The translations under genes and the position numbers were made by a program. The notes under the pieces are model-generated. The model was not told the origin of the DNA and searched no databases. It was given only the letters and a program-made list of their open reading frames with translations. Positions 45,547 through 64,000 of a stretch of 64,000 nt of DNA are shown here, piece after piece. Origin of the DNA: an uncultured Alphaproteobacteria bacterium (lineage in GTDB: Bacteria; Pseudomonadota; Alphaproteobacteria; HIMB59). The stretch is taken from NCBI GenBank assembly GCA_902619375.1, contig CACNEB010000005.1, forward strand, positions 17,355 through 81,354, given 5' to 3'. Within the stretch, counting starts at the first letter, position 1; each line of letters opens with the position of its first letter.

Positions 45547-46068
45547 CTAATAGTTAACCGCGTCAATAAGACGATCCTCAAGATAGTCAGCAAATGATCG
45601 ATTACAACTAAGTAACAATTTAAGATCAAGATTAAAAATAGAACAGTCTACTCTTGCTAATAATGTTTGTGCGGCAGTAGATTTTTTAAAGGATTTTTCT
45701 CTAAAGTCAAAATGCGTTAATTTATTTAATATATCAAAACTATTTTTACCTTGAATTTCAAAAAATACTTGTGAGTCAGAAATATTTGTAGCTAATATTA
45801 AGGGTGATTTATTTAAATCATCTAAGATTTTGTTGAGCTTTTTAATTTCAATTTCTTTTTCAAATATTAAATTCCATTGATCAAAAGACATTTTTGCTAA
45901 AGTATAATTATCATTTGAAATTATCCTTAAATTATCTGATGGTGGTAAAAGTTTTAAAGATTTATTTATATGATTATTAAATTTTGAGTCACCAGATCCT
46001 CTTATCAGAATTTGTTGAATAACTTTTTTTTTTATTTCAATACCATCAGATCGGATTACTTCAGTCAT
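45547..46068 (-). CDS. soxG: Sarcosine oxidase gamma subunit
   Basis: VIQQILIRGSGDSKF; THFDFREKSFKKSTAAQTLLARVDCSIF; operon position. Confidence 0.82.
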   Translation of the reverse strand: MTEVIRSDGIEIKKKVIQQILIRGSGDSKFNNHINKSLKLLPPSDNLRIISNDNYTLAKMSFDQWNLIFEKEIEIKKLNKILDDLNKSPLILATNISDSQVFFEIQGKNSFDILNKLTHFDFREKSFKKSTAAQTLLARVDCSIFNLDLKLLLSCNRSFADYLEDRLIDAVNY

Positions 46069-49043
46069 GAAACTAACCTTTTATTATCTTCATCATAAAA
46101 AACAGGTTTTACTATATCCACACCAGTTGTACTCATACTTGATGTAGAAGCGTAAGCTTTTGTTCCAATCATAGAGTGGCCATTTTTGATAACAGCTAAT
46201 GCAAAATCATGACCTAATGTAGAACTATGATAACAAGATGTAATATGACCAAGCATTGGGACAGGAGACTTAATTTCTTTATCAAGAATGATATGTTGTC
46301 CTTCCTCTAGTTTATCGGCTTTATTCGAGGGAATGATACCAACAAGTTGTTTTCTATCTTCTCTTATAGTATCAGACCGAGTAAGTGATCTTTTACCTAA
46401 AAAATCTTTTTTTGATTTACCAATCATCCAGCTAAGTCCCAAATCTATTGGCGTTATAGAACCATCTGTGTCTTGGCCAACAATAATGTAACCCTTTTCT
46501 GCCCTTAAAAGATGCATTGCCTCAGTGCCGTAGGGAGCAAGACCAAATTCTTTTCCAACACTTTGAATGTTATCCCAAATTTTAGGAGCACTATTTGACG
46601 GAATATATATTTCGTAACCTAACTCCCCAGTAAAGCTTGCTCTTAGAATTCGTAATGGAGTACCATTAAATTCATGAAATTGGAAAGTCATAAATGGAAA
46701 CTCCTCATTGCTAAAATTGATATTTGGAAAGGCTTTTTTCATAATTTCTCTGGTTTTTGGTCCACTAATGTTGAACGTTGCGTATTGCTCTGTAATCGAG
46801 TTCATAAAAACTTTTAAATTTGGCCACTCGGTTTGAGCATATTCTTCCATGCAACCTAAAACAGTAGCAGCACCTCCAGTAGTTGTAGTGGCAATGAAAT
46901 GTTGATCAGAAATTTTACAAATTATCCCGTCATCTTTTACCATTCCATCTTCTCCCAACATAAGAGCATATCTTGCAGAACCTTGTTTCATTTTAGTAAA
47001 GCTATTTGTGTAAATTAAATTCATAAATTCCAACGCATCCTCACCTTTGATCTCAATTTTTCCTAATGTGCTCCCATCTAAAATACCTGCGTTTTCTCTT
47101 ACATTTTTGCTCTCTCGTTGAACAGCATCATGCATAGACTCATCTTTATTAATTTGAAAATACCATGGCCTTTTCCATTGCCCGACATCCTCAAAAATTG
47201 CACCATTTTTTAAGTGCCAACTATGTATTGGTGATTTTCTCTCTGGGTCATAAAACTCATAGCAATTTCTGCCAGCTATTGCAGAGAAACTCAAAGGAGC
47301 ATAGGGTGGTCGATAAATAGTTGTGCCAACTTCATTTACTTTTTTGTCCAGAAGATCAGAAACTATTCCCAGTGCGTTAATGCTACTAATTTTACCTTGA
47401 TCGGTTCCCATACTATTTGTTGTATATCTTTTTAAATGTTCAATTCTATCAAAACCCTCTGTTATTGCTTGACGGATATCTTTAGTTGTCACATCATTTT
47501 GTAAGTCAATAAATGATTTAGCCCATAATGATTTCTTTTGCGGAGACACCTCCCACAATTTTTCAATATTATACTTAGTGTTTGTATTTAATTCGAGTTT
47601 TACGTCTAATTTTTTGACTTTAAAAGTTTTCAATTTTTCATTTACATCAGAATTTAAATTATCAAAATTAAATTGTCCTGAGGCAGAACCAAGAGTTATG
47701 GTAGGTTGAAAAGGTTTTGATGGTTTGTAAGTTAAATCTTTCTCATCCCAATCTAATAAACCTTTTGATTGAGTAAACAAGTGAACATCTGGATTTATTC
47801 CACCTGACAAACATAAGCAGTCACATTTAATTTCATTTAAAGCACCAGAACTATCCTCAACAAGAATTTTTTCAATTTTTTTGTTTCCAAAAGCTCCTTT
47901 TATTTGTGAATTTGTGTAAAGAGGAACATCATTTTTTCTTATTAAGTCAAACAAATTTGGCTCAATTTCCTCCCCAGATCGTGAGTCGATATATGCTTTT
48001 GGTTTTAAACCAGCTTTTATAAGACTATAAACTAAGCTGTTTGAATTCGAATTATTACTGAAAATAACAGGTTCTTTAGAAGGTGCTAATCCATATCGGC
48101 ACATATATTTTTCAAAGGAAGAGCTTAGCATTATGCCTGGGAGATCATTATTTTGAAAAGATAAAAATCTTTCAATGTGTCCATTACATAATATTGTGTG
48201 ACCTGTGCGTATCTTATGTAAAGTGCTATTAACTTTTCCTTCTATAGGTTTAGAGCCAACAAATCTATCTTCAATGGCTATAAGATGATTAATGTAATTA
48301 TAAGTAGTAACAAGTGTGTTTTTTAAAATCTTTATATTCTTAGAGTCTTCTATTTCTTGTATGGTTTCTTTTAACCAATCCTTAGGCTCTTTGTTATCAA
48401 TTAATGATATTTTGTTTGAATTATTTATAATGCCACCAAGTTGTTCTTCAAAGTCAATTAACAACACATCATAATTTGAGTTGATGAAAGATTTAGCTGC
48501 GAGAAGTCCATTTAATCCTCCCCCTATAATTGTAACATCGACGTTATGATGGATATGATTACTTATGCCTTTGAAATCTTTGGGAGGTTTACCCAATCCA
48601 GCTGCTCTTCTAATAAGTGGTTCATATAAATTTTTCCAAAATTTCTTATGTGGCCCCATGAACGTTTTATAGTAAAAACCAGCAGTAAAAATTGGAGAAA
48701 ATAAGTTATTGATACTTCCAAAATCGTTTTCAAGAGAAGGCCATCTGTTTTGACTTTCAATTTCCATCCCTTCATAAATTTTTTTTATAGTCGCTCTTGT
48801 GTTTGGTTCGGAATATTCACTAATTATTTGGACTAGAGCATTTGGTTCTTCTATACCACAGGTATAAATTCCTCTTGGCCTATGATACTTAAAACTTCTT
48901 CCTACAAGGTTAATATTATTTCTTAATAAAGCTGAGGCTATAGTATCGCCTTTGTAGCCAAAATATTTGACCCCATCAAACTTGAAGCTAATTTTTTGAT
49001 GAAACTGAATAAATTGATTTTCTTTTAAATTTATAGATTTCAT
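46065..49043 (-). CDS. soxA: Sarcosine oxidase alpha subunit
   Basis: KYFGYKGDTIASALLRNNINLVGRSFKYHRPRGIYTCGIEEPNALVQI; IIGGGLNGLLAAK; C-terminal GcvT domain. Confidence 0.95.
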   Translation of the reverse strand: MKSINLKENQFIQFHQKISFKFDGVKYFGYKGDTIASALLRNNINLVGRSFKYHRPRGIYTCGIEEPNALVQIISEYSEPNTRATIKKIYEGMEIESQNRWPSLENDFGSINNLFSPIFTAGFYYKTFMGPHKKFWKNLYEPLIRRAAGLGKPPKDFKGISNHIHHNVDVTIIGGGLNGLLAAKSFINSNYDVLLIDFEEQLGGIINNSNKISLIDNKEPKDWLKETIQEIEDSKNIKILKNTLVTTYNYINHLIAIEDRFVGSKPIEGKVNSTLHKIRTGHTILCNGHIERFLSFQNNDLPGIMLSSSFEKYMCRYGLAPSKEPVIFSNNSNSNSLVYSLIKAGLKPKAYIDSRSGEEIEPNLFDLIRKNDVPLYTNSQIKGAFGNKKIEKILVEDSSGALNEIKCDCLCLSGGINPDVHLFTQSKGLLDWDEKDLTYKPSKPFQPTITLGSASGQFNFDNLNSDVNEKLKTFKVKKLDVKLELNTNTKYNIEKLWEVSPQKKSLWAKSFIDLQNDVTTKDIRQAITEGFDRIEHLKRYTTNSMGTDQGKISSINALGIVSDLLDKKVNEVGTTIYRPPYAPLSFSAIAGRNCYEFYDPERKSPIHSWHLKNGAIFEDVGQWKRPWYFQINKDESMHDAVQRESKNVRENAGILDGSTLGKIEIKGEDALEFMNLIYTNSFTKMKQGSARYALMLGEDGMVKDDGIICKISDQHFIATTTTGGAATVLGCMEEYAQTEWPNLKVFMNSITEQYATFNISGPKTREIMKKAFPNINFSNEEFPFMTFQFHEFNGTPLRILRASFTGELGYEIYIPSNSAPKIWDNIQSVGKEFGLAPYGTEAMHLLRAEKGYIIVGQDTDGSITPIDLGLSWMIGKSKKDFLGKRSLTRSDTIREDRKQLVGIIPSNKADKLEEGQHIILDKEIKSPVPMLGHITSCYHSSTLGHDFALAVIKNGHSMIGTKAYASTSSMSTTGVDIVKPVFYDEDNKRLVS

Positions 49044-49390
49044 TTTTCAACCGTAAAATTTCCCGACCCAACTTCTGGTTCACCAGAGGGCGTTTTAACA
49101 ACACTTTTAAAATTATTTAAATTTGGTTTTTTTTCATCGAGCTTGTAGGTCACTAAAATTTCATCAGTAGATGTATCTCTGACACAATTAAACCATTTTC
49201 GACAACCATGTGTGTGTACCCAGCGCTCATAAAACAAACCTTTTGGGTTGGCTCTAATAAAGACATATTCTCCCCACTCACGATCACCAATTTCTTTTGA
49301 TCCATCGGGTCTTTTTACATGTGCCTCTCCTCCATTTGAAAATTCCGATTGATCTCTCGGGCCGCAATAAGGGCAATTAATTATGAGCAT
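49040..49390 (-). CDS. soxD: Sarcosine oxidase delta subunit
   Basis: MLIINCPYCGPRDQSEFSNGGEAHVKRP; ERWVHTHGCRKWFNCVRDT. Confidence 0.95.
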   Translation of the reverse strand: MLIINCPYCGPRDQSEFSNGGEAHVKRPDGSKEIGDREWGEYVFIRANPKGLFYERWVHTHGCRKWFNCVRDTSTDEILVTYKLDEKKPNLNNFKSVVKTPSGEPEVGSGNFTVEK

Positions 49391-49395
49391 ATTTA

Positions 49396-50646
49396 TTAAT
49401 GTGCTACGGCTGCAGCACCGTGTTCGTCGACTAATCTTCCACTTGCAAATCTATCAAGATTAAAAGCACTATTAATTTGATGAGGTTCATTTTTTGCAAT
49501 GGTATGTGCAAAAACATTTGCACTTCCAGGAGTGGCTTTAAAACCACCTGTGCCCCAGCCACAATTAAAAAATAAACCCTCAATGTCACATTTACTAATG
49601 ATAGGACTAGCATCTGGGCAGATGTCAACAATACCACCCCATTGACGAAGCATTTTCATTTTGCCAAATACTGGATAAAGCTCGACCATCGCTCGAATAG
49701 TATCTTCAATAATGTTAAAACCACCTCTTTGAGTGAAAGAATTATAACTGTCGGTTCCTGCTCCAATAACTAATTCACCTTTATCAGATTGACTGACATA
49801 AGCATGAACTGCAGAGGACATTACCACTGTATCAATAATAGGTTTGATTGGTTCAGAAACAAGTGCCTGAAGTGGCTTACTTTGTAAAGGTAATCTGATA
49901 CCTGCACTCTCTGCTAAAACACCAGTATGACCTGAAGCAACAACTCCAATTTTATTTGCTCTTAAAAAACCCTTGGAAGTTTCGACACCTTCTATTGTTC
50001 CATTTTTAGTCCTTATTTGATGTGCCTCACAATTTTGAATTATATCAACTCCCATCTCATCAGCGCGCATTGCAAAACCCCATGCTATTGCATCATGTCT
50101 TGCTACACCACCGCGAGGTTGGTAAGATGCACCTAGCACTGGATATCGAAGGTTGTCAGTATTCATTATAGGAACCTTTTTTTGAATTTCTTCTTTAGAT
50201 AACCAAAATGAGTCAATACCATTTAAATTATTTGCACTAACTCTTCTTTTAATTTCTTTTATATCATGTTCGTTATGGGCTAAATTCATAACCCCTCTTT
50301 GACTGAACATTACATTGTAATTTAATTCGCTTGATAGGTTTTCCCATAACTTCAAAGAGTGTTCGTACAAATGAGCACTATCATCCCATAAATAATTCGA
50401 TCTAATGATAGTGGTGTTTCTACCTGTGTTACCTCCACCAAGCCAACCTTTTTCTATTACCGCAATATTTTTTAATCCATGTTCTTTTGCTAAGTAATAT
50501 GCAGTTCCTAGTCCATGACCCCCACCACCAATTATTATGACATCATAAAACTCTCTAGGTTCGGGGCTTCCCCACATTTTTGGCCACTCTTTATGCCCAG
50601 ATAGTGCATTTTTAGCAAGGCTAAATATTGAATATTTTTTTTTCAC
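49396..50646 (-). CDS. soxB: Sarcosine oxidase beta subunit, GTG start
   Basis: [59 protein letters not shown]. Confidence 0.96.
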
Positions 50647-50674
50647 TACAGCAAATTAGCAAAAAATAAAATAA

Positions 50675-51505
50675 TCAGCTAGTTATTTTCAGGGGCGAAT
50701 TGTCATTAATTTTTTTAAAAATTTTAGGGAACTTCCATTGCAAATCGCAGTCTACATTTGGGGCTTGAGCTGAACTATTTAAGTCGTTTTCACAAATAGT
50801 TCTAATTTCAAAGCTTATCCTTGTATTTTCAGACTTTTCTTTTGATGAGCTATGTAAGTGGGCACCTGAAAAACATAAAACTTCTCCTGGTTTTATAGTT
50901 ACTGGTATTTTCTTAATATTGCTGGGCAAGTCCTCTTTTAATTGTGGAGCAGAGGGATAAGAAAAATCGCCTTTTTTTCTATTGGCTAAATAAATGTTTA
51001 AGTCCCAAGTAGAGGTAGTATTTTTAACTGCAACATCAAAATAATCTGGATAAAAAATCATAGTATTTTTTTCCTCTACATTGCTTACTGGTGCCCACCA
51101 ATTAATTTGTTGATACAAATTTGTGCCCCAAGTATCACGATGAATATTTATTCTGGATGCTTCTCTGTAAGGTAAGTTATTTTCTGCTGGTGCTACTCTT
51201 ACCACAAATCGATCCCAAAAAGTTTCACCTTTATTGTATCCAATCTCAAATAAAAATTTTGAAAACAGTTTTCTGAAATCCTCATGGTTTTTTAATTTTG
51301 ATACAATATCCTTACTTATATCCTCAGAATTTTCTAAATAGTGTATTTTTTCTATTTCACCATCATAAATATTTTGTATTTTATTTTTAATTTGGGTTAT
51401 TAAATCATTTGAAGTTTTTGATTTTTGAAATACAAAAACTTTTCCACTAAAAATATCTTTTTTAAATTCTTGAAGATTTGAAATATTTTCTATTGGTATA
51501 AACAT
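50675..51505 (-). CDS. Putative Fe(II)/2-oxoglutarate-dependent oxygenase
   Basis: HxD (NIHRDTWGTN) and distal H...R (GAHLHSSSKEKSENTRISFEIRT) arrangement. Confidence 0.6.
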   Translation of the reverse strand: MFIPIENISNLQEFKKDIFSGKVFVFQKSKTSNDLITQIKNKIQNIYDGEIEKIHYLENSEDISKDIVSKLKNHEDFRKLFSKFLFEIGYNKGETFWDRFVVRVAPAENNLPYREASRINIHRDTWGTNLYQQINWWAPVSNVEEKNTMIFYPDYFDVAVKNTTSTWDLNIYLANRKKGDFSYPSAPQLKEDLPSNIKKIPVTIKPGEVLCFSGAHLHSSSKEKSENTRISFEIRTICENDLNSSAQAPNVDCDLQWKFPKIFKKINDNSPLKITS

Positions 51506-52588
51506 TCACTTTATATCACCAACATATACCCCAAGTGCTAAAGCAGTTTCAATTAGAGGATCGGATCTATCTACAACTTTATAAGTAGAAATTCCTTCAC
51601 TAATTGGAACATCAACAACTTTCCTATCTCTCCAGGCAACCATTCTTCCAAATTTTCCTTTTGCAATTAAATCAACAGCATAAACTCCAAAAGCACTAGC
51701 TAAAATTCTATCACGCGGAGTAGGAGGCGCACCTCGTTGAACATGCCCCAAAGAAGTGACCCTACACTCTATATCAGTACTTTTCATTATTTCCTCTGAA
51801 AGATAATTACCTATTCCGCCTAATCTTTTTTGACCATCAGCGTATTCAACAGTATAACTTTTTCCGTTTTCTGTTTTTACTGCCTCTGCTACTACAATCA
51901 GCGAATGAACTATTCCTCTATTTTTCATTTCAGTGAGTTTATTAACAATTCCTTTGATAGAGTAATCTAACTCAGGAATTAGGATTACATCTGCTCCACC
52001 TGCAATGCCTGCGTTAATAGCTATGTGTCCCGCGTCTCTACCCATTACTTCTAAAATCATCGTTCTTTGATGACTTGCAGCAGTTGTTTGTAAGTTATCT
52101 AGTGCTTGGGTAGCAACATTTACAGCTGTATTAAACCCTATGGAGCTTTCAGTGGCTCCCACATCATTGTCAATTGTTTTAGGTATGGCTACAATATTTA
52201 AGTCACCTCTTTTTGCAATTTCAGTTAATATCGACATACTTCCATCTCCGCCTATAACAATAAGCCCATCAAGACCTAATTCTTTGTAACCATCAATAAT
52301 GTCTTGGGATCTATCTTTGTATTTACCATCTGGCATGGGAAATTTAAAAGGATTACCTTTACTTGTTGTTCCCAAAAATGTCCCACCTTGTCTTAGAAGA
52401 GAACCGCTAAAAGTTTGATAGTCTAATGGAACATAAGCCACTGGTCTTTGCATCAAACCAACAGTGCCATCACGAATACCCATCACTTCCATCTGATATG
52501 TATTTTTAGCTCTGAAAAATATCGATCTAACTGCCGCGTTTAAACCACCACAGTCTCCACCACTAGTAAGAATTCCAATTTTTTTCAT
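51506..52588 (-). CDS. pfkA: 6-phosphofructokinase
   Basis: ILTSGGDCGGLNAAVR; VIGGDGSMSIL; PKTIDNDVGATESSIGFNTA; MGRDAGHIA; LGHVQRGAPPTPRDR. Confidence 0.95.
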   Translation of the reverse strand: MKKIGILTSGGDCGGLNAAVRSIFFRAKNTYQMEVMGIRDGTVGLMQRPVAYVPLDYQTFSGSLLRQGGTFLGTTSKGNPFKFPMPDGKYKDRSQDIIDGYKELGLDGLIVIGGDGSMSILTEIAKRGDLNIVAIPKTIDNDVGATESSIGFNTAVNVATQALDNLQTTAASHQRTMILEVMGRDAGHIAINAGIAGGADVILIPELDYSIKGIVNKLTEMKNRGIVHSLIVVAEAVKTENGKSYTVEYADGQKRLGGIGNYLSEEIMKSTDIECRVTSLGHVQRGAPPTPRDRILASAFGVYAVDLIAKGKFGRMVAWRDRKVVDVPISEGISTYKVVDRSDPLIETALALGVYVGDIK

Positions 52589-53512
52589 TTAAAATTTATC
52601 TGAGTCCCACAACCACGCTGCCCCTCTAACACCGCTGGAGTCACCGTGAGTATTCCGTAAGATCTTATTTCTTATCTTATCACTAAATGTGTATTTAGGA
52701 AGTAATTTAGGTATATTGTCATAAAGTCTACCAACGTTTGACATACCTCCTCCAAAAACTATTACCTCAGGGTCAACGATACCGATCATTACAGATATTA
52801 ATCTGGCAAAACGATCTTCATATAATTCAAATTCTTTTTTTGCTCTTTCATCTCCATTTGCTTCCAAAGCGACTATTTCTCTTGTTCTTAAACTAGTGCC
52901 ATATTTCTCATTAAATAATTTTGTAAAACCTATTCCTGATATAAATTGCTCAGCACATAATGGTCTTTTGCAATTACCTACATTACATTGGACATTAGAA
53001 TTAATTTCCTCCTCAGTAGGATAGGGTAATGGTTGATGTCCCCAATCTCCTGCAATTTGGTTAACGCCCTCAATGACTTTCTTTTCATAAACAAATGATC
53101 CGCCAAAACCAGATCCAATAATTACACCCCAAACTGATTTATAATTTGCCCCAGAGCCATCGATAGCTTCAGATAATGCAAAACAGTTAGCATCATTCAT
53201 GATACGAATTTCTCTATTTAAACTTTTTTCTAGGTCTTTATGAAATGGTTTGTCATTAATCCATATACAATTTGCATTATTTACTAAGCCAGTTTCATAT
53301 GAAGAAAATCCTGGTATGCAAACCCCTACAGAATTTTGTTGATCTGTAAATTTATCAAATTCTGAAACTAAAGATTTTACGGTATTTAAACCACTTTCGT
53401 AATTTTTTTCATAAGTAGATCTTTTTCTCTGAATTTCTTTACCATTTGAGTCTATTAAAATACCCTCAATTTTGGTACCACCATAATCAATGCCTATTTT
53501 AAAATCACTCAT
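52589..53512 (-). CDS. ROK family sugar kinase (fructokinase/glucokinase-like)
   Basis: IGIDYGGTKIEGILID; CNVGNCKRPLCAEQFISG Zn motif; VIGSGFGG. Confidence 0.88.
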   Translation of the reverse strand: MSDFKIGIDYGGTKIEGILIDSNGKEIQRKRSTYEKNYESGLNTVKSLVSEFDKFTDQQNSVGVCIPGFSSYETGLVNNANCIWINDKPFHKDLEKSLNREIRIMNDANCFALSEAIDGSGANYKSVWGVIIGSGFGGSFVYEKKVIEGVNQIAGDWGHQPLPYPTEEEINSNVQCNVGNCKRPLCAEQFISGIGFTKLFNEKYGTSLRTREIVALEANGDERAKKEFELYEDRFARLISVMIGIVDPEVIVFGGGMSNVGRLYDNIPKLLPKYTFSDKIRNKILRNTHGDSSGVRGAAWLWDSDKF

Positions 53513-53537
53513 TTTTAAATAGATACCATAAGTTATA

Positions 53538-53572
53538 AAATATATGTATGAAATCTTTTAAATATATGTATG
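53538..53572. promoter_or_regulatory. Tandem direct repeat AAATATATGTATG (two copies 22 nt apart) in a divergent intergenic region
   Basis: Identical 13-mers at 53538-53550 and 53560-53572. Confidence 0.6.
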
Positions 53573-53603
53573 GATTGTAGTCAAATAGGTTTAAATTTTT
53601 TTT

Positions 53604-54611
53604 ATGAAAAAAAGAATTATTAATTGGGGCATATTAAGCACTGCTAAAATTGGTTGGGAGCACGTAATACCTGCAATAAAAAAATCTAAAAATAGTCAGG
53701 TTATAGCGCTCGCTAGTAGAAATTTATCCAGAGCAACGGCTTTAACAAAAAAATTTAAAATACCTAAAAGCTATGGTTCTTATAAAGAGTTATATGAAGA
53801 TAAAGATGTAGATGTAATTTATAACCCTCTTCCTAACCACTTACATATAAAATCAAGTATTGAGGCCTGTAAAAATAAAAAAAATCTCCTATTAGAGAAA
53901 CCATTATCTTTAAAATCAAAAGATATAGACCCATTAATAAAAATTGCCTCACAAAATAAAGTTATTGTTAAAGAAGCATTTATGGTCAGGCATCATCCTC
54001 AATGGCGATGGGTTAAAGAATATATAAAATCAGGTAAGATCGGATCAATATCAAGTATATCAACAGTGTTTTCATACAATAATAAAAATCCAAAAAATAT
54101 CAGAAATATCAAAAACTTTGGTGGAGGGGCCATCTATGACATTGGATGTTATCCGACTGTCATATCAAGATTTCTTTTAGATAAAGAACCAAAAAGAGTT
54201 ATTGCAACTTCTAAAAATGATAAAAAATTTAAAACAGATATTTTATCATCCGCATTGTTAGATTTTGGAGATATTTTCTCAACCTTTACAGTTGCTACAC
54301 AAAGCACATATTCACAACAAGTAGTAATTCTTGGCACAAAAAAAACAGTTGTTATTGAAAATCCTTTCAACGCAATTGCGAATAAATCAACTACAGTTGT
54401 TATCTACAATGGAAAATCAATCTATCGAAAAGACAATACAATAAAAGTATTTCCAGCGACTGATCAATATGAACATCAAGTTACAAAATTTTCTAATGAG
54501 TTAATTTATAAAACTAAAATAGATTATGGATTATTAGATGCAAAAAAAAATATGAAAGTCTTAGATGCAATTTTTATGTCTATTAAGAAAAAAAAGTGGA
54601 TTAAAATTTAA
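53604..54611 (+). CDS. Gfo/Idh/MocA family oxidoreductase
   Basis: INWGILSTAKIGWEHVIPAI; DVIYNPLPNHLH; LLEKPLSL; EAFMVRHHPQW. Confidence 0.93.
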   Translation: MKKRIINWGILSTAKIGWEHVIPAIKKSKNSQVIALASRNLSRATALTKKFKIPKSYGSYKELYEDKDVDVIYNPLPNHLHIKSSIEACKNKKNLLLEKPLSLKSKDIDPLIKIASQNKVIVKEAFMVRHHPQWRWVKEYIKSGKIGSISSISTVFSYNNKNPKNIRNIKNFGGGAIYDIGCYPTVISRFLLDKEPKRVIATSKNDKKFKTDILSSALLDFGDIFSTFTVATQSTYSQQVVILGTKKTVVIENPFNAIANKSTTVVIYNGKSIYRKDNTIKVFPATDQYEHQVTKFSNELIYKTKIDYGLLDAKKNMKVLDAIFMSIKKKKWIKI

Positions 54612-54644
54612 TTTATTAGTGAGATAATAAAAAATTTCAATTAA

Positions 54645-55670
54645 TCAATGGGCACTAGAAGGAGCCCATATATTTATATCACCCTCTTTTGCAGCTTTAT
54701 TTATTTCTTTTATTTCTTTTTTTGAAAATTTTAAATTATCAAGTGTAGCTAAGTTTTCTCTAAGCTGTTTTACTGTTCTAGCCCCAATTAAAGCAGAAGT
54801 TATTGCACGATTATTTAATACCCAAGCTATAGCCATTTGGGATAGAGATTGATTTCTTCTTTTTGCAATTTTATTGAGTTCATTAATAATTTTAGTATTT
54901 TTTTTCGTTATTAAATCTTTGCTGAAAGAGCTATTCTCATTAACCCTTGAAACTTTGGGAATTCCTTTTAAATATTTATTAGATAAAAAACCTTGGGCTA
55001 GTGGAGAAAAGGCGATACAACCAACCCCTTTTTTTATGAGAGTTTTTGTTAAATCTTTTTCAATCCATCTATTAATTAATGAATAAGAAGGTTGATGAAT
55101 TAATAATTTGATTCCTTTGCTCTTTAAAATTGAAATCATTTTATTTGTCTTATTGGAGGAGTAAGAAGAGACACCAATATACAGGGCCTTACCAGCTTTA
55201 TAGATACTTTCTAAAGCATCAGCTGTTTCCTCAAGAGGTGTATTTGGATCAAAACGATGAGAATAAAATATATCTACATAATTCAGTTTCATCCTCTTTA
55301 AACTTTGATCGCAACTAGCAATTACATGTTTTTTTGAACCCCATTCACCATAGGGTCCATCCCACATATCGTAACCTGCTTTAGACGATATAATTAACTC
55401 ATCACGGTATTTTCCAAGATCACTTTTCATGACTTTTCCAAAATTAGACTCAGCACTGCCATAAGGTGGTCCATAATTATTTGCTAAATCAAAATGAGTA
55501 ATTCCTGCATCAAAAGACTCAAAAAGAATTTTTTTAGACTCTGAAGCCATTCCATTGCCACCAAAGTTATGCCATAACCCTATTGACAAGACAGGTAGTT
55601 TTAAACCACTATCACCACAGTTTCTATAATGCATTTTTTGATAGCGATTTTTGTCTGAAATATATGGCAT
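54645..55670 (-). CDS. Aldo/keto reductase
   Basis: GLWHNFGG; ITHFDLANNYGPPYGSAE; YVDIFYSHRFDP; IGVSSYSS. Confidence 0.93.
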   Translation of the reverse strand: MPYISDKNRYQKMHYRNCGDSGLKLPVLSIGLWHNFGGNGMASESKKILFESFDAGITHFDLANNYGPPYGSAESNFGKVMKSDLGKYRDELIISSKAGYDMWDGPYGEWGSKKHVIASCDQSLKRMKLNYVDIFYSHRFDPNTPLEETADALESIYKAGKALYIGVSSYSSNKTNKMISILKSKGIKLLIHQPSYSLINRWIEKDLTKTLIKKGVGCIAFSPLAQGFLSNKYLKGIPKVSRVNENSSFSKDLITKKNTKIINELNKIAKRRNQSLSQMAIAWVLNNRAITSALIGARTVKQLRENLATLDNLKFSKKEIKEINKAAKEGDINIWAPSSAH

Positions 55671-55672
55671 TT

Positions 55673-56593
55673 TTAAAGTAATTCCTCTTTGTATGGCATC
55701 GAATTTGCTGCTCCCTCCCTTGTAACAGAAACACCTGCCACAAGATTAGCAAACTCAATAGCTTCTTTGTAGTTTTTATTTTTTGAGATTGCCACACTTA
55801 GAGCCCCATTAAAAGCATCTCCCGCACCTGTTGTGTCAACTACTGGTTTTTTTAGATTTGAAGCAGGTACCATAAACTCCTCTTTATTGTTTTTAAAATA
55901 ACAACCATTTTCTCCAAGTGTAATAATTATATTCTTTATCCCTTTGTCTAAAAAAAAACTTCCTGCTTTTTTACAGTCTTCCTCATTTTTAATTGATTGA
56001 CCGTAATAAAAACTTGCTTCCGTTTCATTGGGGGTAAAAAAATCAAAATATTGAAAGTTATCATTAGTTATTTCACTGGCGGGTGCTGGATTTAGAATTG
56101 TTGTACAATTAAAATTTTTCGCTTTTTTTATAGCATAGAGTGTTACCTCTTTTGGTGTCTCTAACTGAGTTAAAAAAACATCAGAAGACTCAATTATATT
56201 TAACTTTGAGTCGATTAAATTTTCATCAATTGTACCAGCAGCTCCTGGAACAACATTTATTGCATTTTGCCCAGTTTTTTCATTAATCAATATACCTGCA
56301 GCACCAGTTGATTCATTTTCAGAGATAACCAAACCATCATAATTTATTTTATCTCTCTTGTATAAAGAGATTGCAAGATCGGCATAGCTATCTTTACCTA
56401 CTTTACTTATAAATGATACATTACCTCCTGCTCTAGCTGCTGCTATTGCTTGGTTAGACCCTTTACCACCTGGTCCGATGATGTATTTTTTTCCTAATAT
56501 GGTTTGACCTGGTATTGGAATATCATTTGCAAAAAAACACAGATCTGCAACGAATATCCCAAATACACAAATACTCAATGATCTAGTACCCAA
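55673..56593 (-). CDS. rbsK: Ribokinase-like PfkB kinase
   Basis: GPGGKGSNQAIAAARAGG; VVDTTGAGDAFNGALS; LNPAPA. Confidence 0.9.
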   Translation of the reverse strand: MGTRSLSICVFGIFVADLCFFANDIPIPGQTILGKKYIIGPGGKGSNQAIAAARAGGNVSFISKVGKDSYADLAISLYKRDKINYDGLVISENESTGAAGILINEKTGQNAINVVPGAAGTIDENLIDSKLNIIESSDVFLTQLETPKEVTLYAIKKAKNFNCTTILNPAPASEITNDNFQYFDFFTPNETEASFYYGQSIKNEEDCKKAGSFFLDKGIKNIIITLGENGCYFKNNKEEFMVPASNLKKPVVDTTGAGDAFNGALSVAISKNKNYKEAIEFANLVAGVSVTREGAANSMPYKEELL

Positions 56594-57033
56594 ACAGTAC
56601 CATCAGGTTTAATAACTCCTTTAGTTAAGATGAAGCATCCAAATGGTCTTGTTTCGTTTGTTGTTATTATGGCAAATGCCTTTTTGGCTTCATCATAAAA
56701 TTTAAACCTTTCAATAGATGAAATTTTCCAATGCTCTCCTGAGATTTTCTTAGTTATGTCAATTATTTCTTGATGAACTTCATTTAATTGATCTGGATTT
56801 CCATCAATTTCCATCCTTTGAATAGGAGAGTCGACGAAGCTATCTAGAGGAAATACAGAGAGTATAGCCTCGGCAGCTCTTGTAGCATTTACACCATCAA
56901 TACGATGAACTTTGGAGTTCATCGAATAGGCGGGAAAATTTGAGTCACATAAAATTAATTTATCTCCATGTCCCATCGCTCTTAAAGTATGCAAAACCTC
57001 TGGACTAAGAATAGGATCAATTTTAATAAGCAT
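56575..57033 (-). CDS. RbsD/FucU family sugar mutarotase/pyranase
   Basis: ILSPEVLHTLRAMGHGDKLILCDSNFPAYS; overlaps rbsK by 19 nt. Confidence 0.88.
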   Translation of the reverse strand: MLIKIDPILSPEVLHTLRAMGHGDKLILCDSNFPAYSMNSKVHRIDGVNATRAAEAILSVFPLDSFVDSPIQRMEIDGNPDQLNEVHQEIIDITKKISGEHWKISSIERFKFYDEAKKAFAIITTNETRPFGCFILTKGVIKPDGTVWVLDH

Positions 57034-57072
57034 ATAACATAGAACTAAATTAATTCGTTAAATTCAACTTAA

Positions 57073-58089
57073 TTAATTAATCTTTACTGGTTTGGATCTT
57101 AGTTTTCCGACAGTCTCTAGCTCTGCTTTTCTGCATAACTTTGGAGGGAGACCTTTATTTATTAGTTTTAAATCTTCAAACACTATTTCGCCCATTTCAT
57201 AAAACACAGACTCTAGAGCTCCCGCTCTGTGTGCTGAGAAAAGAATATTTTTAGATTTACGTATGGGATCATTTTTTTTTACTGGCTCCTCAGGAAATAC
57301 ATCTGTTGCAACTTTTATTTTTCTTTTTTTTGAAATTTTTAGTAGGTCTTTAAAATTCACTACATTAGCTCTACTTAGAATTAGTAAACAAGAATTTTCT
57401 TTCATCAGACTCAGTAGCTTTTTATCAATCATATGTTTGTTTTTTGTTGTGATAGAACTAAGAACATATATCACATCTGATTTTTTAAATATTTCATTAA
57501 GAGAATTAATTTTACAATTATTATCCTCAAGCAACTTGCTTGGAAGCCAAGGGTCGTATGCAAGAAAATTATTTGTGAATGGCTCTAACAAGGGTTTTAA
57601 CTTTTTGGCTAGATCTCCAAAACCAATAAAGCTGACAGTGTTATTCTGCAATAAACTAGCGTTCATATTACTTTCCAATCCATATTTTTCTTTATTATTA
57701 ATAAAATCTATATGTGATTGATGAATTTCCCTCTTGAGAGATAAAGTAAAACCAACTGCAATTTCAGCAACTGTTTGAGCAAAAACAGGAGCAGTGGAGA
57801 GAACATAGATACCATTTCTAAAACAATACTCATAATCCATATTGTCCATGAAGTTGCTCTCAACATTGAATATAGCTTTAAGTTTTGCTGCCTTTTTTAA
57901 AATTGAATTTGGAAGGTCAGGTTGTCCAATTATAAAATCTGCTTTTGATATATTGTTTTGATAAAAATTTTTTTTATTTTTTATTGGAGCGTTAATAAGT
58001 TTGAAATTTTTTTTTAAATAAACAAGCTTATCTTTAGAGAAAATAAGATCCATTTGTCTTGGAAAAGGATCAACAATTATTGTTTTCAT
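57073..58089 (-). CDS. D-isomer-specific 2-hydroxyacid dehydrogenase family protein
   Basis: VSFIGFGDLAKKL NAD motif; catalytic R (SRANVV), E (DVFPEEP), H (FSAHRAG). Confidence 0.85.
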   Translation of the reverse strand: MKTIIVDPFPRQMDLIFSKDKLVYLKKNFKLINAPIKNKKNFYQNNISKADFIIGQPDLPNSILKKAAKLKAIFNVESNFMDNMDYEYCFRNGIYVLSTAPVFAQTVAEIAVGFTLSLKREIHQSHIDFINNKEKYGLESNMNASLLQNNTVSFIGFGDLAKKLKPLLEPFTNNFLAYDPWLPSKLLEDNNCKINSLNEIFKKSDVIYVLSSITTKNKHMIDKKLLSLMKENSCLLILSRANVVNFKDLLKISKKRKIKVATDVFPEEPVKKNDPIRKSKNILFSAHRAGALESVFYEMGEIVFEDLKLINKGLPPKLCRKAELETVGKLRSKPVKIN

Positions 58090-58107
58090 TACTTGATTAT
58101 ATCAATT
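58087..58107 (-). promoter_or_regulatory. TATAAT-N6-ATG, predicted leaderless promoter of 2-hydroxyacid dehydrogenase gene
   Basis: Reverse strand AATTGATATAATCAAGTAATG. Confidence 0.6.
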
Positions 58108-58135
58108 ATTTATTTTTTTGATAATCTAAGTTGAA

Positions 58136-58801
58136 ATGAAAAGATCTGAAATAAATGCTGCAATATCTGAAGCTAAAGATATGATCGATAGATATTCGTG
58201 GGTTCTACCTAAATGGGGCTATTGGTCTAAAGAAGAGTACAACAATAATCCTGACCTAAAAAATTATTTAAAAAATCATCAAATGGGCTGGGATGTTACT
58301 GATTTTGGTAAAGGCGAATTTGAAAAAAAAGGTATCACCTTGTTTTGTATAAGGAATGGAATACAGGGTAATAATGATGACAAACCCTATGCAGAAAAGT
58401 TATTGTTTATGAGAGAAGGTCAAGAAATTCCTTTTCATAGCCATAAGGTAAAACTAGAAGATATAATTAATCGGGGAGGCGGGGAATTAGTAATTGAATT
58501 TTTAGAAGTCGACTCAAATCAAATTGAATTAAACTCTAAAATTGATGTTCTTGTTGATGGTGAAATAGTTTCCGTTGCACCAAGAGAACCCTTAATTTTA
58601 AAAAGAGGCCAGAGCGTCACTGTTGAAAGAAACATATATCATAAATTTTACTCTGCTAAGGGTTCAGGAATGGTTATGGCAGGAGAGGTTTCTCAAGTCA
58701 ACGATGATAATAAAGATAACTATTTTTTAGAAAGTGTGGGAAGGTTTACTGAAGTTGAAGAAGATGAAGTTGCGATACATCCTCTCTGGAATGAAATATA
58801 A
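58136..58801 (+). CDS. D-lyxose/D-mannose-type cupin sugar isomerase
   Basis: MKRSEINAAISEAKDMI...WDVTDFGKGEF...KLLFMREGQEIPFHSHKVKLEDIINRGGGELVIE. Confidence 0.85.
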   Translation: MKRSEINAAISEAKDMIDRYSWVLPKWGYWSKEEYNNNPDLKNYLKNHQMGWDVTDFGKGEFEKKGITLFCIRNGIQGNNDDKPYAEKLLFMREGQEIPFHSHKVKLEDIINRGGGELVIEFLEVDSNQIELNSKIDVLVDGEIVSVAPREPLILKRGQSVTVERNIYHKFYSAKGSGMVMAGEVSQVNDDNKDNYFLESVGRFTEVEEDEVAIHPLWNEI

Positions 58802-59778
58802 TGCAAAGAGGTATAATTGGCCTTGGAATGTGGTGTGTAGATACCACATACAAAATAGATAATTTACCTGATAGAGGTAAATTAGAAGCAATTTCTAATA
58901 CTTTTCAATGCGTAGGTGGAGGTCCATCGAATGTTTTGACGGATTTAAATTCTTTAGGATTTAAACATCCAATGTACGCAATGGGATCAATTGGACTTGA
59001 TACAGATGCATCAATTATAAAAAAACATTGTAGAGAAAATAAAATAGAGACTAAATATTTAATTGTATCAAAGCAAATTTCTACTTCTCATACCGTTTGT
59101 ATGTTTGAAAAACAAAAAGAAAGAACTTTTTTATATTATCCAGGGGCAAACAGCTTACTTGATAAAAAACATTTTAAAATTAACCAATTAAAAATTTCAC
59201 CTAAAGTTCTTTATGTCGGATATATTACACTATTAGGTAATTTGGACAAATTTGATGTTGACAAAAAAACTCGTTTATCAAAAGTTTTAAAAAAAGCTAA
59301 AAGTAAAAATGTGATAACAGTTTTAGATTTAGTTTCAAATAAGCACCCTAAATATAAAAATATTATTGAAAGCTCATTGCCATTCATCGATTATTTGCTT
59401 TTAAATGAAATTGAAGCAGAGATACTATTTAATAAAAAAATATACGACTTCAATAAAAAACTTAATCAAAAAATCTTAATCAAGTTAATCAGTAAAGTTT
59501 TCAAAAAGGGTATCATTAGAGGAGTTGTTATTCATAGTCCAACTGAGTCGCTCTATTTTGATAGATCAAAAAAAATTTACACTAAATCAAAGGTTTTACC
59601 AAAAAACAGGGTAATAAATTCAGTTGGAGCTGGAGATGCTTTTTGTGCAGCGTTTATATTTGGAATACATGAAAATTGGGACATAAAAAAAACTCTCAAA
59701 AAGGCTCATGCAGCTGGGACATCTATGATGAAAGTTAATGCCTCTTCTGGAAATTTACCCAATATATCTAAATTATAA
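58801..59778 (+). CDS. PfkB-family carbohydrate kinase (ketohexokinase-like)
   Basis: GGGPSNVLTDLNSLG N-terminal and NSVGAGDAFCAAFIFG C-terminal PfkB signatures. Confidence 0.88.
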   Translation: MQRGIIGLGMWCVDTTYKIDNLPDRGKLEAISNTFQCVGGGPSNVLTDLNSLGFKHPMYAMGSIGLDTDASIIKKHCRENKIETKYLIVSKQISTSHTVCMFEKQKERTFLYYPGANSLLDKKHFKINQLKISPKVLYVGYITLLGNLDKFDVDKKTRLSKVLKKAKSKNVITVLDLVSNKHPKYKNIIESSLPFIDYLLLNEIEAEILFNKKIYDFNKKLNQKILIKLISKVFKKGIIRGVVIHSPTESLYFDRSKKIYTKSKVLPKNRVINSVGAGDAFCAAFIFGIHENWDIKKTLKKAHAAGTSMMKVNASSGNLPNISKL

Positions 59779-60765
59779 TTTTAAAACTTTTTCAGTGATC
59801 TCAAGGTCTTTTAAAAGTTTCCTGTCGGGTATGAGTTTATTTTTCTTTAATTCAGAATGGTAAAGTTTTACAGCATCCTTAGGTTTAATGTTACTTTCAA
59901 CAACTTCTCTCATAATTTTTACTAATAAGATAGGATCTTCAGCTAAGTTAATTTTTCTCCCAAACAAAGCTACTTTTGCACCATATTGACTGGCTTTTTT
60001 AATTAATTCAAAACAATCTCTTGTCGTGCCCTTGCTACCCCCAAGAATACCAACAATAAGATTTTCAGGATCGAAGCTGGCTAGCTCCTCCATTGCTTTT
60101 GGACCATTGTAAGCTATTTTCAAAAAAAGAGGTCTCTCATCCCTAGTCTGCCCAGCTATTGCTTTTATAATGCAATCGTTAATGTAATCACCCATTTGTC
60201 TTATGTTCATATTTAGATCAATCGGGGAATTAAATACTTCTAAAAAATGTTTAAATTTATATTTAGAAGCCTCAATTCTATATTCTTTATAGGCATTTAA
60301 CATTGCAAGGTCATAGTCAACATTATTAGAAAATGTTATAGAAAATAAACCAAGGTTAACTAATTTACTTACTTTGTTCATTTGAGCAGACCGAAAAGGT
60401 CTAGGATTAGTTTTTCTATAATTTCCATTTCTCATCAGCCAGATATCAGTCGTATCATTCACTCTAATAGCAGGTGTAATACTTGAATTTTTAAATAAAT
60501 TTCTTTTTACAAGATCTTCACCAACTGATGCAGACATCAGCATAATATCCACTAAATTAGATTTAGTCATCGATATCATTGCATTTTTGTAATCTACTAG
60601 GTTTTTATATCCTTTTAGTACTTTTCCATTTTCATTTCTTTTTGATCCAGGTGTTGTGATGCCCATTGCTAGATCGCCATCTTTAGCATCTGCTATAATG
60701 AAGTCTCTTGGAGAATATTTATTATTTTTTATTTTAAGAATTTTTTTATCTAAAGACTTATTCAT
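59773..60765 (-). CDS. Beta/alpha-barrel, class I aldolase-like protein (DeoC/LacD/FbaB-like), substrate unknown
   Basis: RPLFLKIAYNG (candidate Schiff-base Lys), LIVGILGGSKGTTRD, AKVALFGRKINLAEDP barrel-end motif. Confidence 0.6.
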   Translation of the reverse strand: MNKSLDKKILKIKNNKYSPRDFIIADAKDGDLAMGITTPGSKRNENGKVLKGYKNLVDYKNAMISMTKSNLVDIMLMSASVGEDLVKRNLFKNSSITPAIRVNDTTDIWLMRNGNYRKTNPRPFRSAQMNKVSKLVNLGLFSITFSNNVDYDLAMLNAYKEYRIEASKYKFKHFLEVFNSPIDLNMNIRQMGDYINDCIIKAIAGQTRDERPLFLKIAYNGPKAMEELASFDPENLIVGILGGSKGTTRDCFELIKKASQYGAKVALFGRKINLAEDPILLVKIMREVVESNIKPKDAVKLYHSELKKNKLIPDRKLLKDLEITEKVLKL

Positions 60766-60784
60766 GATTTGATTATACTCAATT
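60763..60784 (-). promoter_or_regulatory. TATAAT-N6-ATG, predicted leaderless promoter of aldolase-like gene
   Basis: Reverse strand AATTGAGTATAATCAAATCATG. Confidence 0.6.
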
Positions 60785-60813
60785 CTAAAAATAGAAAATA
60801 GTTTTATTCTCTA

Positions 60814-60828
60814 TATAATATAAAAATG
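60814..60828 (+). promoter_or_regulatory. TATAAT-N6-ATG, predicted leaderless promoter of xylB
   Basis: TATAAT at 60814-60819, ATG at 60826. Confidence 0.6.
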
Positions 60829-62280
60829 TATTTAGGTATTGATCTTGGTACTTCTTCGATGAAGTGTTTGCTACTTGGAGAAGAACAAGAAATTTTGTTG
60901 AGTGTTATTAGTGAAGATATACCACTGTCCACGCCTCAAAATGGCTGGTCAGAACAAGATCCATCATTTTGGATAAAAGCGTTAGATCAGTGTATCAAAC
61001 AAATTGTTTTAAAATTTGATTTATCGCAGATTAAAGCTGTATCTTTTTCCGGACATATGCATGGTGCAACTTGTATTGATAAAAATTATAAGGTCATAAG
61101 GCCATGTATACTTTGGAATGATACACGTAGTTTTAAGCAGTGCAGTCAAATTATGGCTAACGAAACTGTTATGGATATAGCTGGAAATCTAGCAATGCCT
61201 GGTTTTACATCTCCAAAAATCTTATGGATGAAAGAACACGAAAGTGAAAATTTTAAATCAATTGCAAAGGTTTTATTGCCGAAAGACTATTTAAGGTTTT
61301 ATTTAACGGGAGAGTTTTTTAGTGATTTGTCAGACGCAGCAGGCACTTATTGGTTAGATGTTAAAAATAGAACTTGGTCTAATAAACTTTTAGATATTGG
61401 CTCAATGGATATCTCGCAAATGCCTAAAACTTGTGAGGGTACCGATCAAACAGGTGTAATTAAAAAAGATATTGCAGAAAAATATGGCTTTAATAACTCT
61501 TGCAAAGTATTTGGTGGAGCAGGAGATAATGCTGCAGCCGCTGTTGGATTAGGGCTTTACCAAGAGGGAAATGCTTCATTATCTTTGGGTACTTCTGGTG
61601 TAATTTTTGGTTCAACAAAAAATTTTTTAAAAAATTATGATGATGCGATACATTCCTTTTGCCACTGCTTACCAGAAACATGGCATCTTATGTCAGTGAT
61701 GCTCTCTTGTACCTCAAATGTTAATTGGTTTATAAATAATTTTAATTCATCAATTGAAGAGATTAATAAAGTGTTAAGTTCTGTTTTAAATCATTTTTCT
61801 GATACAAATAGATACCCTTATTATCTTCCTTATCTCACAGGTGAGAGAACCCCAATTAATGACCCTCATATAAGAGCAAGTTTTCACGAAATGAGTATTG
61901 ACACTAATCGAGACACATTAATCTATAGTTTAATAGAGGGTATTTCTTTCGGTTTGTATGATAATTATTCTTCCTTAGTTAAGACAGGTATAAAGTTAGA
62001 TAACATCTTTGTAATAGGAGGTGGTTCTAAAAATGATAGCTGGATACAAATACTTGCTTCATTGATGGAGAGAGATTTATCTATAACAGAAGCTTCAGAT
62101 ACAATGGCTGCTTTTGGGGCTGCTAGAATAGCATTTCTTGGTTACAATAATTTAAAACCAAGAGAAGCCCTTAGTCTTCCAAAAGTCAAAAAAATTATAG
62201 GTAAGAATGAAATTCAAACGGATATCTTAAAAGACAGATTTTTAAGGTGGAAAAGCTTTTATTTAGGAAAAAATGTCTAG
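60826..62280 (+). CDS. xylB: Xylulokinase-like FGGY kinase
   Basis: YLGIDLGTSSMKCLL; GWSEQDPSFWIKAL; FSGHMHGATC; YLTGERTPINDP; GGGSKNDSWIQILA. Confidence 0.92.
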   Translation: MYLGIDLGTSSMKCLLLGEEQEILLSVISEDIPLSTPQNGWSEQDPSFWIKALDQCIKQIVLKFDLSQIKAVSFSGHMHGATCIDKNYKVIRPCILWNDTRSFKQCSQIMANETVMDIAGNLAMPGFTSPKILWMKEHESENFKSIAKVLLPKDYLRFYLTGEFFSDLSDAAGTYWLDVKNRTWSNKLLDIGSMDISQMPKTCEGTDQTGVIKKDIAEKYGFNNSCKVFGGAGDNAAAAVGLGLYQEGNASLSLGTSGVIFGSTKNFLKNYDDAIHSFCHCLPETWHLMSVMLSCTSNVNWFINNFNSSIEEINKVLSSVLNHFSDTNRYPYYLPYLTGERTPINDPHIRASFHEMSIDTNRDTLIYSLIEGISFGLYDNYSSLVKTGIKLDNIFVIGGGSKNDSWIQILASLMERDLSITEASDTMAAFGAARIAFLGYNNLKPREALSLPKVKKIIGKNEIQTDILKDRFLRWKSFYLGKNV

Positions 62281-62911
62281 TAGCCAAAGATTAGAATTCC
62301 CTGAATTAGTAAACAAAATACTAGAAAATGTTATTAAAATTAATCAAAGTCGTTATTTTATTGCAATTTCAGGAGCGCCAGCATCTGGAAAAAGCACAAT
62401 ATCTGAAAAATTAAAGTCTGAACTAATATCAAAAAACCACAAATCAAGTGTTCTTCAAATGGATGGTTTCCATCTAGATAATAATATTCTTGAGAAAAAA
62501 AAATTGATTGAGAGAAAAGGGGCACCGGAAACATTTGATGTACTAGGTTTATTAAATTGTTTATTAAGATTAAAAAACGAGGGTGAAGTAATTGTTCCTA
62601 TCTTTGATAGATCATTAGAACTATCAAGATCATCTGCATTAGTCATATCTGAGAATACAAAAATTATAATAGTAGAGGGTAATTATTTATTGCTTGATCA
62701 AGAACCATGGAGAAAAATTCATAATTTTTTTGACACAACTATAATGATTGATTGCAATAAAGATATTTTAGAAAAAAGATTAATTGAAAGATGGGAGAGT
62801 TATGGGCTATCTAATGATCAAATTAAAAATAAAGTTTACAAAAATGATCTTCCAAATGGATTAAATGTTATTAGTAAAAGTATTTCTGCTAAATTTAATT
62901 TAATAAATTAA
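62273..62911 (+). CDS. Nucleoside/nucleotide kinase family protein, FrcK-like
   Basis: ISGAPASGKSTISEKL P-loop; LQMDGFHLDN; IFDRSLE; VEGNYLLLDQEPWRKI; adjacent to frcA-like gene. Confidence 0.82.
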   Translation: MSSSQRLEFPELVNKILENVIKINQSRYFIAISGAPASGKSTISEKLKSELISKNHKSSVLQMDGFHLDNNILEKKKLIERKGAPETFDVLGLLNCLLRLKNEGEVIVPIFDRSLELSRSSALVISENTKIIIVEGNYLLLDQEPWRKIHNFFDTTIMIDCNKDILEKRLIERWESYGLSNDQIKNKVYKNDLPNGLNVISKSISAKFNLIN

Positions 62912-63672
62912 TCTTGAGGTGGTTGCTTAGCACCTGTCATATATGCGACAGCATCAGACATTTCATGTTTCTTAGGGTCAATTACACATAATCGGGTTCC
63001 AAGTCTATGAATATGTATTCTATCAGCTACTTCAAAAACATGAGGCATGTTATGAGAAATTAATATGATGGGAATTCCTCTAGACCTCACCTCACCAATT
63101 AATTCTAAAACTCTTCTACTTTCTTTGACACCGAGAGCGGCAGTAGGCTCATCCATAATAACGACTTTAGTTCCAAATGATGTTGCTCTTGCAACTGCAA
63201 CACCTTGGCGTTGACCTCCAGACAATGTTTCAACTAATTGATTTATATTTTGTATGGTTAATAGACCAAGATCAGACAATCGTTTTCTAGCTTCATCTGC
63301 CATTGCTTTTTTATCTAAAAATTTTAAAAAACTACCCATAAAGCCTTTTTGTCTAATTTCTCTGCCTAAAAACATATTATCAGTGATTGATAAAGCAGGT
63401 GAAAGTGCAAGGTTCTGATAAACAGTTTCGATACCTAATTTTCTTGCTTCTATGGGTGATGTAAAAGTAACTTTATTTCCATCAAGCAATATTTCACCAC
63501 TATCAGGTATAACAGCACCACATAACACCTTAATTAGTGTAGATTTTCCAGCACCATTGTCTCCAATTACTCCTAAAACCTCACCTGGATAAAGCTCTAA
63601 ATCAGCACTATCGAGTGCAACAACTTTACCGTATTTTTTTGACAACTTATTTGCTACTAGCACTGGCTGCAT
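62908..63672 (-). CDS. frcA: Sugar ABC transporter ATP-binding protein, FrcA-like (start trimmed to MQPVLVANK)
   Basis: GVIGDNGAGKSTLIKVLCG; LSGGQRQGVAVARA; IMDEPTAALGVKES; stop/start overlaps permease as TAATG. Confidence 0.88.
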   Translation of the reverse strand: MQPVLVANKLSKKYGKVVALDSADLELYPGEVLGVIGDNGAGKSTLIKVLCGAVIPDSGEILLDGNKVTFTSPIEARKLGIETVYQNLALSPALSITDNMFLGREIRQKGFMGSFLKFLDKKAMADEARKRLSDLGLLTIQNINQLVETLSGGQRQGVAVARATSFGTKVVIMDEPTAALGVKESRRVLELIGEVRSRGIPIILISHNMPHVFEVADRIHIHRLGTRLCVIDPKKHEMSDAVAYMTGAKQPPQD

Positions 63673-64000
63673 TATGCTGAGACCTTTCTTATCCATTGAT
63701 CTATTCCAACAGCAACTATAATAAGACAACCTAAAGCAAATCTTTGCCACAATACATCAAGACCTGCTATGGACAGACCTGAGCTAAATACACCCACAAT
63801 CAAAGCTCCAAATAAAGAGCCAATTATAGTGCCCCTTCCACCAAAAAGAGAAGTTCCACCTATCACAACAGCTGTAATGGAGTCTAAGTTACCTTCATAA
63901 AAAGATGTTGGAGAGACTGAACCAACTCTACCTATCGAAACCCATGCTCCAATCGCAACAACAAGCCCAGCAACAGCATAAATTGAAACTAACATCCTGT
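63672..64000 (-). CDS. frcC: Sugar ABC transporter permease, FrcC/RbsC-like, N-terminal part beyond window edge
   Basis: GNLDSITAVVIGGTSLFGGRGTIIGSLFGALIVGVFSSGLSIAGL permease signature. Confidence 0.88.
   Translation of the reverse strand, partial: RMLVSIYAVAGLVVAIGAWVSIGRVGSVSPTSFYEGNLDSITAVVIGGTSLFGGRGTIIGSLFGALIVGVFSSGLSIAGLDVLWQRFALGCLIIVAVGIDQWIRKVSA

Follow-up and report, generated by a model that had tools for sequence, protein, structure and literature searches.

A barrel protein with a predicted class I aldolase fold, a putative ketose-1-phosphate aldolase, beside an isomerase-PfkB kinase pair in an uncultured alphaproteobacterium

The stretch of DNA analysed here (64,000 nucleotides from an uncultured marine alphaproteobacterium, probably of the HIMB59/AEGEAN-169 type to judge from its named relatives, referred to below as the window) carries near its end a cupin sugar isomerase, a PfkB-family kinase and a barrel protein, followed at a short distance by an Frc-type sugar transporter. 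A sugar-cleavage module is in our opinion the best explanation of this arrangement, with a probability of about 60%. According to this reading, the sugar imported by the Frc-type ABC transporter would be an aldose, in all likelihood D-mannose or else D-lyxose, and the isomerase would convert it to D-fructose or D-xylulose, respectively. The next step would be phosphorylation of the ketose by the coupled PfkB kinase, most likely at O1, after which the barrel protein, via a Schiff base at Lys216, would cleave the ketose-1-phosphate to DHAP and D-glyceraldehyde (or glycolaldehyde). The observations behind this reading are the gene identities, the predicted fold, an invariant lysine, the co-occurrence of the genes in the genus and the linkage to kinases; from them we infer, strongly as regards the pathway assignment, the substrate, the phosphorylated carbon and the cleavage. 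The features of the region are as follows.

55673-56593, minus strand: ribokinase RbsK (TIGR02152, 315 bits, cut-off 299.65)
56575-57033, minus strand: RbsD/FucU-type sugar mutarotase (PF05025, E 1.3e-37)
58136-58801, plus strand: D-lyxose/D-mannose-type isomerase, cupin (221 aa; PF07385)
58799-58803, plus strand: TAATG in which the isomerase stop codon overlaps the kinase start codon, coupling the two genes (from the sequence)
58801-59778, plus strand: PfkB-family sugar kinase with GAGD motif (325 aa; PF00294)
59773-60765, minus strand: barrel protein with class I (Schiff-base) aldolase fold, putative ketose-1-phosphate aldolase (330 aa; predicted fold)
60118-60120, minus strand: codon of Lys216, predicted Schiff-base lysine position on strand 215-218 (invariance in 43 homologues, hhalign)
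60826-62280, plus strand: xylulokinase XylB, FGGY (TIGR01312, 504 bits, cut-off 380)
62273-62911, plus strand: FrcK-like P-loop kinase (NF006746, 244 bits, cut-off 250; PF00485)
62908-63750, minus strand: Frc-type single-domain sugar ABC ATPase (PF00005; true start probably internal)
63672-63995, minus strand: Frc-type sugar permease, truncated at the contig end (open reading frame and homology)

The initial annotation had described three open reading frames, the first two coupled and the third convergent with the second, and this layout was confirmed in coordinates and strands. A single TAATG holds both the stop codon of the isomerase and the ATG of the kinase; as a bare string it is not rare in the window and matters only through its position at the gene junction. 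The kinase and barrel genes overlap by 6 bases. The Frc-like transporter that had been placed beside the trio is also present (62908-63995), in an incomplete form, as the window ends with the contig. Its ATPase scored about 310 bits against the ATPases located near the barrel gene in several rhizobia.

The barrel protein had been regarded as the least characterised member of the trio, and it indeed matched no Pfam family at E ≤ 0.001, including PF01791, the DeoC/LacD family to which YihT belongs and against which a search had been suggested. Its NCBIfam matches (LsrF, ADH synthase and archaeal FBP aldolase) were weak, restricted to the last third of the protein and far under the cut-offs, as illustrated by the 29.8 bits obtained with the LsrF model NF006081 against a cut-off of 297. 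The structural part of the proposal was supported. The AlphaFold2 model (30 homologues; pLDDT 92.9, pTM 0.90) was compared with the PDB by Foldseek, and each of the best 50 hits was either a DhnA/LacD-type aldolase or a related thiolase or synthase. They comprise LsrF, archaeal FBP aldolase, ADH synthase, tagatose-bisphosphate aldolase and a single bacterial FBP aldolase, with E values down to 3.8e-11.

The motifs FLKIAYNG, GGSKG and FGRKIN, which had first suggested an aldolase, are present in the protein, and the model contains, in addition to the fold, a candidate for the Schiff-base lysine. Lys216 is invariant in 43 homologues (41-75% identity to the window protein), is situated on the model strand 215-218 and was paired by hhalign with the lysine conserved among DhnA-type aldolases, with weak statistics (probability 5%, E 0.0073); the fold match would be the stronger evidence for its position. 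Also invariant in the same 43 homologues are D26 and K28 at the first strand of the barrel, E176 (strand 172-178), and GG242-243 (of GGSKG) and GRK269-271 (of FGRKI) at its last two strands, the region in which this fold binds the substrate phosphate. The dN/dS of the barrel gene, calculated against two diverged relatives where computable, was about 0.11. The barrel protein is very likely a Schiff-base aldolase of phosphorylated sugars. Its aldolase family appears to lack an assignment, since no library searched names it; a literature search, partial in its coverage, found no named family either, and we know of no activity for any homologue.

LsrF was the best match of the barrel protein both in Foldseek and by sequence. 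The barrel might accordingly be read as an LsrF-like thiolase or a DhnA-fold synthase that transfers carbon-carbon bonds instead of performing aldol cleavage, and the barrel loci of Agrobacterium resemble lsr operons in that a sugar-binding regulator accompanies an FGGY kinase. However, the score against the LsrF model is a fraction of its cut-off, neither LsrG nor LsrR was found near the barrel, the GlpD-like dehydrogenases that accompany some homologues are foreign to lsr, and archaeal FBP aldolase fits the fold almost as well as LsrF. We therefore find a thiolase or synthase quite improbable. The barrel protein resembles LsrF, archaeal FBP aldolase and ADH synthase in its fold, lysine position and C-terminal phosphate-binding region, but the structural-alignment identity is 12-15% and the protein falls below every curated cut-off.

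The isomerase scored over the Pfam cut-off of PF07385 (Lyx_isomer; E 3.9e-77, 258.8 bits vs 20.8) and under that of the NCBIfam equivalog NF051472 (D-lyxose/D-mannose isomerase; 209.3 bits vs 350). It is presumably a member of the family, with a specificity that the NF051472 score does not assure. Its only PDB match was the D-lyxose isomerase of E. coli O157 (3kmh/3mpb, E 4e-42), and isomerases of the PF07385 type have both D-lyxose and D-mannose as substrates (family description; PMC10128022). A search of nine genomes for mannose-6-phosphate isomerase of type I, with a working control, gave no match, which leaves room for the isomerase to act on mannose, and xylose isomerase (XylA) was present in all nine, including elsewhere in the genome of the window. 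Taken together, these two findings lean towards mannose/fructose. The chances of mannose/fructose against lyxose/xylulose or another sugar seem to us evenly divided, and the adjacent XylB keeps lyxose/xylulose in play.

A sulfosugar route, which had been considered in the initial annotation, was rejected. The isomerase belongs to neither of the sulfo-EMP isomerase families (YihS, PF07221; SqvD, PF02952) and matches PF07385 only. The sulfo-EMP system (YihS-YihV-YihT) shares with the window the logic of isomerase, PfkB kinase and class I aldolase, and the kinase model resembles YihV, but the isomerases are of different families and the barrel lies outside PF01791, the family of YihT.

The kinase was over the Pfam cut-off of PF00294 (PfkB; E 6.3e-35, 121.4 bits vs 25.8), its GAGD motif is invariant, and its AlphaFold2 model (pLDDT 92.5) has the ribokinase fold. 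Foldseek ranked ribokinases first and also matched YdjH (3h49) and the sulfofructose kinase YihV, and the best PDB match of the sequence profile was YdjH (E 2e-28). YdjH is a C1 kinase of ketoses that precedes an aldolase, whereas ribokinases phosphorylate O5. The first rank of the ribokinases would count against phosphorylation at O1, and the predicted fold alone would leave the phosphorylated carbon unsettled. When compared with other kinases, the genus kinase scored 133-177 bits against the isomerase-linked kinases of Rhizobium and Thioclava, about 93-128 bits against full-length kinases linked to the barrel alone, and only about 50 bits against the isomerase-linked kinase of G062, a genome of the sister family. 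In the kinase tree the barrel-linked kinases formed one supported group, and the genus and isomerase-linked kinases were left unresolved; we therefore rely on the bit scores and make no claim of shared ancestry.

Within the genus, the isomerase and barrel genes were present in the same 43 of 52 genomes and missing in the same nine, most of which are incomplete (one genus genome, G029, is a single 1.41-Mb contig). All 38 genus loci that hold the three genes, some genomes being sampled twice, have the tandem isomerase-kinase pair and the convergent barrel gene. The kept layout, the shared presence or absence and the dN/dS of the barrel gene speak against an accidental arrangement. The co-occurrence that had been expected of related genomes thus holds within the genus, in a fixed order, but outside it the barrel and the isomerase-kinase pair take other partners. 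Among the 48 genomes of the sister family, G062 contains the isomerase and the barrel about 18 kb apart and G065 the barrel only.

These data also bear on the role of XylB, which could offer a rival exit via xylulose-5-phosphate, although the XylA encoded elsewhere in the genome may be its partner. If the actual route were that of the isomerase and XylB, from D-lyxose via D-xylulose to xylulose-5-phosphate, the kinase and the barrel would be a separate module for a ketose that the Frc transporter imports directly. This would agree with the adjacency of XylB, which is over its cut-off, and with the occurrence in Shinella, Pararhizobium and Aureimonas of the barrel and PfkB beside Frc/Rbs-type transporters without the isomerase. 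It is opposed by the TAATG overlap of isomerase and kinase, by the tandem kept in 38 of 38 loci and by the closer similarity of the genus kinase to isomerase-linked than to barrel-only kinases, G062 being the exception, and we consider it unlikely.

Outside the genus, the barrel is a module separate from the isomerase. The genes around it were labelled from their homology to selected query proteins, with record annotation as support, and a sugar kinase was found near the barrel in 32 of 36 such loci. Four kinds were distinguished: PfkB (15 loci), FGGY together with a GlpD-like dehydrogenase (11), ADP_PFK_GK (5) and DhaK-DhaL (1), with none found in the other four loci. Sugar transporters of the Frc/Rbs or CUT1 type are common in these neighbourhoods. 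By established chemistry, GlpD-type oxidation of a polyol phosphate would give a 1-phospho-2-ketose, as would a C1 ketose kinase. Since both routes lead to this product, ketose-1-phosphate is favoured as the common substrate class. Cleavage of a ketose-1-phosphate to DHAP seems to us a fairly probable reaction of the barrel protein. The pairing with DhaK-DhaL, observed in Lichenicola, could reflect the release of free dihydroxyacetone and in that case would count against DHAP as the product.

Two further observations concern these neighbourhoods. The barrel homologues at L137, L135, L102, L150 and L152 are located near a bacterial kinase akin to ADP-dependent glucokinase/phosphofructokinase (PF04587), family membership being confirmed for L137 and L135 only. 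In G062 (L096:6215-10329), a probable E1 alpha/beta pair of the pyruvate/acetoin-dehydrogenase type, assigned solely from gene size and a neighbouring lipoyl-abhydrolase, lies beside the barrel homologue.

Isomerase-PfkB pairs were also found in the company of other aldolases. In Rhizobium (L146, L147) and Thioclava (L143) the pair follows a DhnA-type aldolase and a Gfo/Idh/MocA dehydrogenase; these operons are like the window in their tandem PfkB and in isomerase identity (54-56% in Rhizobium, 44% in Thioclava), and unlike it in the aldolase, which is of the PF01791 DhnA/LacD type, and in the additional dehydrogenase. The order at L160 of G062 is isomerase, PfkB, two E1-type subunits and a class II aldolase; the E1 pair inside this operon (L160:4530-9112) is of the pyruvate/acetoin-dehydrogenase type and was confirmed by family. 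On a Phyllobacterium plasmid (L145), the remaining components seen in the window, namely a ROK repressor, FucU, a kinase, a sugar ABC transporter, the isomerase and an FrcK-like kinase, were found together, and no PfkB-barrel pair.

The lmuKAIZYX genes of EHEC, for which a route from aldose to ketose, ketose phosphate and cleavage has been proposed, resemble the window in combining a D-lyxose/D-mannose isomerase, a PfkB-family kinase, an aldolase and a sugar ABC transporter, and differ from it in their neighbours (PMC10128022). LmuI forms fructose from mannose, and LmuK is active as a fructose kinase (PMC10128022). LmuA is 41% identical to the class I FBP aldolase of S. aureus (PMC10128022), and by this published description it would differ from the window barrel, which matches no Pfam aldolase family. 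The position beside the isomerase and PfkB is thus filled by different aldolases (DhnA-type, class II, LmuA), which supports the aldolase role of the barrel. At the same time, lmuK and lmuA are dispensable for growth of EHEC on lyxose (PMC10128022), which weighs against the cleavage reading, unproven even in EHEC. The initial annotation had envisaged a dedicated pathway formed by the trio: an Frc-linked isomerase-kinase-aldolase route still stands, but the trio is fixed only in the genus, and the route is not new because the same layout has already been proposed for EHEC (PMC10128022).

The possibility that the barrel is the missing glycolytic fructose-1,6-bisphosphate aldolase of the organism was rejected. 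In favour of such a role, the distance from the trio to a phosphofructokinase and a ROK kinase is only about 7-8 kb, and the only class II aldolase of the genus is IolJ-like. However, the genome of the window encodes a separate class I FBP aldolase over its cut-off (446.8 bits vs 277, L132), and rhizobial plasmids carry the homologues of the barrel as accessory genes, which makes a glycolytic role extremely improbable. A search of the genome with PF00274 gave no match, the control genomes being silent as well.

Homologues of the barrel occur in rhizobia, agrobacteria and a Vibrio as well as in bacteria that are abundant in the ocean. The proposed cleavage reaction would supply a testable function for a protein family labelled only 'hypothetical' in the annotated plasmid records examined, and since the partners of the barrel include sugar kinases of four kinds, a single assay of the enzyme could account for a number of uncharacterised sugar and polyol pathways. 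We suggest tentatively, and with more doubt than confidence, that the barrel founds a family of class I aldolases specific for ketose-1-phosphates and serving PfkB, FGGY plus GlpD and ADP-dependent-type kinase routes. In AEGEAN-169 it might possibly support a liver-like fructolysis that bypasses phosphofructokinase, leading from mannose via fructose and fructose-1-phosphate to DHAP and glyceraldehyde. If true, this would show how AEGEAN-169, which is reported to have a broader sugar range than SAR11 (PMC10308909), may feed mannose-type sugars to central metabolism.

In addition, the sugar cassette appears to have been swapped among strains, as seen when window positions 50000-63000 were compared with L049, L050, L051, L105, L055 and L042. 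The identity to L049-L051 was about 95-98% up to about 56 kb and 68-75% at 57-62 kb, and the identity to L105 shifted at about 58-59 kb. L055 and L042 displayed the reverse pattern, with a dip at 50-54 kb. Upstream of the cassette, as read from the sequence only, the window contains a sarcosine oxidase-like cluster (46065-50646; large dehydrogenase, small subunit and FAD oxidoreductase), which is followed by the phosphofructokinase and ROK kinase at 51506-53512.
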